From: Alphaproteobacteria bacterium
GTDB taxonomy: Bacteria > Pseudomonadota > Alphaproteobacteria > UBA9219
Assembly (NCBI GenBank): GCA_028866275.1
Contig: JAGWIK010000002.1
Span: 1 to 64,000, forward strand
Direction: 5' to 3'
DNA: 64,000 nucleotides
The notes beneath the pieces were generated by a model. It saw only the letters and a list, made by a program, of their open reading frames with translations. It searched no databases and had not been told where the DNA came from. The position numbers and the translations under genes were made by a program. Shown one piece after another: positions 22,438 through 22,488 of the stretch (positions within the stretch are counted from its first letter, which is position 1; each line of letters begins with the position of its first letter).

Positions 22438-22446
22438 TTATCCACA
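22438..22446 (+). promoter_or_regulatory. Consensus DnaA box
   Basis: TTATCCACA, exact match, overlapping NrdR-like box 1. Confidence 0.6.
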
Positions 22447-22457
22447 AGATTATGTGT
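22442..22457. promoter_or_regulatory. Candidate NrdR box 1
   Basis: CCACAAGATTATGTGT; 12/16 to acaCwAtATaTwGtgt. Confidence 0.55.
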
Positions 22458-22472
22458 GGCCAGATCAAATTG

Positions 22473-22488
22473 CCACAAAATATAGGGT
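22473..22488. promoter_or_regulatory. Candidate NrdR box 2
   Basis: CCACAAAATATAGGGT; 13/16 to acaCwAtATaTwGtgt; starts exactly 31 bp from box 1. Confidence 0.6.

Follow-up and report, generated by a model that had tools for sequence, protein, structure and literature searches.

The two 16-bp palindromes upstream of a gene for a relative of the class II ribonucleotide reductase NrdJ are, judged from sequence and with a probability of roughly 0.88, a genuine dATP-dependent NrdR operator, placed in front of a gene from which the catalytic segment is gone. The NrdR protein is a known repressor of catalytically active ribonucleotide reductases. The window (the whole stretch of DNA that was analysed, 64,000 nucleotides long) contains both palindromes in the 172-bp intergenic region between the end of dnaB (position 22598) and the ATG of the NrdJ-like gene at 22425 (Table 1). 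The first-pass annotation had described them as NrdR-like boxes matching the consensus acaCwAtATaTwGtgt; their letters, their coordinates and their agreement with the consensus are as it gave them, and so are their distance to the ATG and the presence of a minus-strand TATATT inside box 2.

In gene orientation, the gene-proximal box 1 reads ACACATAATCTTGTGG and matches the consensus at 12 of 16 positions, while the distal box 2 reads ACCCTATATTTTGTGG and matches at 13 of 16. Box 1, starting 17 bp from the A of the ATG, is the weaker of the pair and deviates from the consensus at a central position that is otherwise well kept; box 2 is the stronger. The box starts are 31 bp apart, which leaves 15 bp between the boxes, within the 14–17 bp of an NrdR operator with its boxes about three helical turns apart. 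A riboswitch was considered for the upstream region and rejected, as an Rfam search of positions 22300–22700 gave no match up to E = 1.

Table 1. Features of the NrdJ-like gene and its upstream region (positions in the window)
Feature	Position	Strand	Sequence and remarks
DnaA box	22438..22446	plus	TTATCCACA, perfect; shares five bases with box 1; from sequence
NrdR box 1 (gene-proximal)	22442..22457	.	CCACAAGATTATGTGT; key C 22445 and G 22454; 12.6 bits with the independent matrix
NrdR box 2 (distal)	22473..22488	.	CCACAAAATATAGGGT; key C 22476 and G 22485; 18.3 bits with the independent matrix
Candidate -10-like hexamer	22479..22484	minus	TATATT; inside box 2; from sequence
Conserved block	22491..22511	minus	TGTTAATAACTTTTTCTTTAT; upstream of box 2; columns tgt.a.taactttt.cttt in 20 f1 promoters
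Regulated gene, relative of class II ribonucleotide reductase (NrdJ)	20356..22425	minus	689 amino acids; PF08471 and PF02867 matches

For scoring, a palindromic matrix was trained on 35 non-redundant promoters of intact nrdJ genes (with the NPCSE motif) from other Alphaproteobacteria, using the published NrdR consensus as a seed and no sequence from the family of the window gene. With this independent matrix the window pair scores 30.9 bits, within the range of the intact nrdJ promoters; the second-best pair at a spacing of 31 or 32 bp in the window scores 12.3 bits, and no other single site in the window scores as high as box 2. The two palindromes are above chance: in 5000 dinucleotide shuffles of the intergenic region the maximum was 20.3 bits, and none of the shuffles (0/5000) reached the score of the window pair. 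The whole 2.19-Mb genome was searched by pattern scans. A scan for CCACWAKATWTWGKGT, with up to two mismatches allowed, gave only three matches with a single mismatch, both boxes among them. A scan for paired CNANATNNNG (CNANAT) cores at 31 bp, replacing a looser scan for CNNNATNNNG pairs that had given at least 68 places, found 11 places, only three of which score more than 20 bits: those of the NrdJ-like gene, of nrdA and of gcrA. In a further 76.9 kb from other stretches of the family no pair reaches 20 bits, the best (19.8 bits) resembling an nrdA promoter pair.

The gene gcrA encodes a cell-cycle regulator, and three NrdR-like boxes are located upstream of it in the genome of the window (contig C69, 86709–86817; positions 3710–3818 of the extracted locus L015). 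They start at 86709, 86740 and 86802, 31 and 62 bp apart, and score 8.9, 13.4 and 19.4 bits, with the gcrA start at 86910; the middle one overlaps a TTATCCACA DnaA box, as box 1 of the window does. Near nrdA in other genomes, gcrA was sought and not found in the stretches examined. If conserved, the gcrA boxes would tie dNTP sensing to the cell cycle.

The protein encoded by the regulated gene contains the N-terminal and barrel Pfam domains of the NrdJ superfamily, both above their cut-offs, and is predicted to have the ribonucleotide reductase fold. Its AlphaFold model is confident (pLDDT 83), and the best Foldseek match of the model is a class II reductase (PDB entry 7b9p, E = 3e-34). The scores against the curated NCBIfam models of NrdJ stay below their cut-offs (85.5 versus 399.95 bits for TIGR02504 and 296 versus 1737 bits for NF005736). 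Compared with intact NrdJ, the 689-residue protein has little left of the segment that precedes residue 440 or so; both the first redox cysteine and the NPCSE motif have gone with it. In all 20 family f1 proteins the radical cysteine motif N-P-C-S-E is absent, so that the catalytic cysteine, asparagine and glutamate are all gone, and of the redox cysteine pair of the barrel the first position is deleted and the second replaced. The protein also ends before the C-terminal cysteine region, which is missing from every family member. The product is thus catalytically incomplete, in line with its earlier description as a putative pseudoenzyme. Literature searches found no description of such an inactive class II relative. 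The NrdJ relatives of the sister families f2 and f3 (L039 from G025, L040 from G029, L044/L103 from G032) are likewise without NPCSE, although L039, an f3 protein, retains the long extension at the C-terminus; catalysis may have been lost across the order.

Orthologues of the NrdJ-like gene were found in 22 of the 24 genomes examined, that of the window included; nearly all of the relatives are metagenome-assembled, and some records in the group are labelled Micavibrio. The first-pass annotation would have been contradicted by boxes confined to one genome, and the boxes prove to be conserved. Both are kept in family f1, where upstream sequence was available for 20 orthologues and 19 of them show a pair at 31 or 32 bp that scores at least 20 bits (the exception, G010, scores 16.3), and in the sister family f3 all three genomes have a pair (23.7–28.8 bits). 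In family f2, the pair is missing from four genomes and another has just a lone strong box, although f2 genomes have nrdR. Averaged over 20 promoters, the best pair scores 25.9 bits at a spacing of 31 and at most 12.6 bits at every other spacing from 18 to 45. In G004 (locus L023) the gene-proximal box is decayed and the DnaA box lost, and the pair consists of box 2 and a weaker box 31 bp on its other side, which may have replaced the lost partner.

Such a distribution could also be left by a fossil operator, inherited from an ancestral nrdJ and attached to a functionless pseudogene in decay. Pairs of the same kind do precede intact nrdJ genes in other Alphaproteobacteria, the protein lacks its catalytic segment, and f2 has lost the operator. 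The f1 proteins, which form one well-supported group with long branches in the tree, are only 31–60% identical, compared to 79–89% for NrdA; the gene thus evolves fast, possibly under relaxed constraint. It is also dispensable, being missing from G011 (99% complete) and G023. Against the fossil stand reading frames that are intact in about 20 genomes, 57 positions (including the EENTxPSWLW stretch) invariant across 20 orthologues, the confidently predicted fold and an operator that was retained as identity between the proteins fell to 31%, which a neutral 47-bp operator should not survive. The fossil reading is considered unlikely. The retained frame, fold, invariant residues and operator argue for a function of the NrdJ-like protein, while its rapid divergence and its dispensability call for caution.

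Overlapping box 1 is a perfect DnaA box, a feature absent from the first-pass annotation. This conserved match to TTATNCACA near the promoter, as at DnaA-regulated promoters, is exact in 17 of 20 f1 promoters, having been lost in G003, G004 and G010. Since the E. coli nrdAB genes are repressed by DnaA (PMC11853086), it could be proposed that the conserved elements are DnaA sites, namely TTATCCACA and a weaker upstream copy TGTTAATAA (a DnaA box with one mismatch is present upstream in several f1 promoters), and that the likeness to NrdR boxes stems from the CCACA common to both motifs. However, the stronger box 2 holds no DnaA box, the signal at a spacing of 31 bp is sharp, and the promoters on which the matrix was trained came from other families. 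This explanation is rejected because in two genomes the NrdR pair persists although the DnaA box has been lost: G003 of f1, with 26.6 bits at 32 bp, and G025 of f3, with 23.7 bits at 31 bp. We regard it as very unlikely. NrdR boxes with an overlapping DnaA box remain the preferred reading, in which DnaA probably adds a second input; part of the conservation of box 1 could be owed to the DnaA box. The conserved block upstream of box 2, for which NrdR does not account, is possibly a weak DnaA-like site or a -35 region.

That the boxes serve a neighbouring gene instead, as the divergent gene found upstream in some relatives might suggest, is extremely improbable and is rejected by the gene layout: dnaB runs in the same direction and ends before the gap, so the NrdJ-like gene is the only one to start from it, and while the upstream neighbour varies among relatives, the boxes stay with the NrdJ-like gene.

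The NrdR reading, as first proposed, depended on an nrdR gene in the genome. One is present, in a single intact copy (contig C73, 90110–90553), scoring 165 bits and above the TIGR00244 cut-off. Autoregulation of nrdR was considered and set aside, since the 6-kb stretch around it contains no good pair (best 7.2 bits). The genome encodes one class I reductase (nrdA at C69, 108693; nrdB at 110943), and upstream of nrdA there are boxes 31 bp apart that score 25.4 bits as a pair, compared with 30.9 for the NrdJ-like gene. Among relatives, the pair of the nrdA promoter reaches 20 bits in nine of 12 cases, scores 19.8 in one and is weak in two. All family members without nrdB (G001, G003, G008, G010, G016, G017, G018, G021 and G023) have nrdD, and the nrdD promoters of these nrdAB-less relatives all (9/9) have a pair at 31 or 32 bp, of 21.0–35.6 bits. 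Members of a single family thus rely on either the aerobic NrdAB or the anaerobic NrdD as their working reductase, with NrdR pairs upstream of both, and the NrdJ-like gene occurs alongside either enzyme. The co-regulation with functional reductases put forward by the first-pass annotation is thereby supported at the level of sequence, with a like pair before nrdA in the same genome and before nrdA or nrdD in relatives. Co-regulation of the NrdJ-like gene with the working reductases is well supported by these pairs, whose expression the dead enzyme probably still follows.

According to published work, NrdR acts as a tetramer that carries dATP and ATP, occupies two boxes spaced by three helical turns and represses transcription (PMC9110341). 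The key C and G are 9 bp apart within a box, with 31 bp between boxes (positions 9, 18 and 40, 49 in Streptomyces coelicolor; PMC9110341), and the C and G of the window boxes have the same offsets as these important S. coelicolor positions. NrdR binds best when 15–17 bp separate the boxes (PMC12051234), and the window has 15. From this published mechanism and the identical offsets in the window, we infer that NrdR binds and represses at the window boxes, and that the NrdJ-like gene would be repressed in a dATP-dependent manner along with the working reductase. At high dATP, a tetramer carrying ATP and dATP would occupy both boxes over the promoter and turn the gene off; when dATP falls, the gene would be expressed with the catalytic reductase, nrdAB here and nrdD in the relatives without nrdAB. 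The gene stems from the alphaproteobacterial class II nrdJ; it has lost the radical-bearing catalytic segment and retained an intact frame and its putative NrdR control.

The operator would tie expression of the NrdJ-like gene to dNTP levels and suggests a dNTP-related role for its product. The most likely role of the 689-residue protein is that of a partner or regulator without catalysis of its own, connected to dNTP supply, although this is the least certain part of the interpretation. One tentative and rather doubtful version is that the dead class II reductase is a family-wide, NrdR-controlled regulator, made when NrdR frees the reductase genes and modulating whichever of the oxygen-dependent NrdAB and the anaerobic NrdD the species uses, perhaps as a brake or as a partner that senses nucleotides. 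That a family-wide reductase relative without its catalytic core has kept an operator would mean that the NrdR regulon can retain a gene whose chemistry has gone, and it suggests that the protein contributes to dNTP control in a non-catalytic way. The same gene with the same operator in nrdAB and nrdD lineages is a natural experiment on the partner of the protein.

The arrangement is close to that of class II reductase promoters with NrdR box pairs, such as nrdRJ of S. coelicolor (PMC9110341), which also has two palindromes with C and G 9 bp apart in each box, the boxes 31 bp apart before a class II reductase gene (here a relative of one) and nrdR in the genome. What sets the window apart is that its protein is without the catalytic segment, that nrdR is located elsewhere in the genome and that box 1 shares bases with a DnaA box. 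Alphaproteobacterial nrdJ promoters (Azospirillum, Pseudovibrio, Stappia and others; loci L104–L161) mostly have a pair at 31 or 32 bp before the homologous gene, but there the product is a full-length enzyme of about 1200 residues with NPCSE and C-terminal cysteines. The E. coli nrdAB promoter (PMC12176259, PMC11853086) likewise combines NrdR boxes and DnaA on one reductase promoter, the DnaA input in the window being predicted, whereas the product there is an active class I enzyme. The closest solved relative by both sequence and fold is the vitamin B12-dependent ribonucleotide reductase of Rhodobacter sphaeroides (PDB entry 7b9p), a 925-residue class II construct with which the window protein aligns only over the N-terminal part and the second half.
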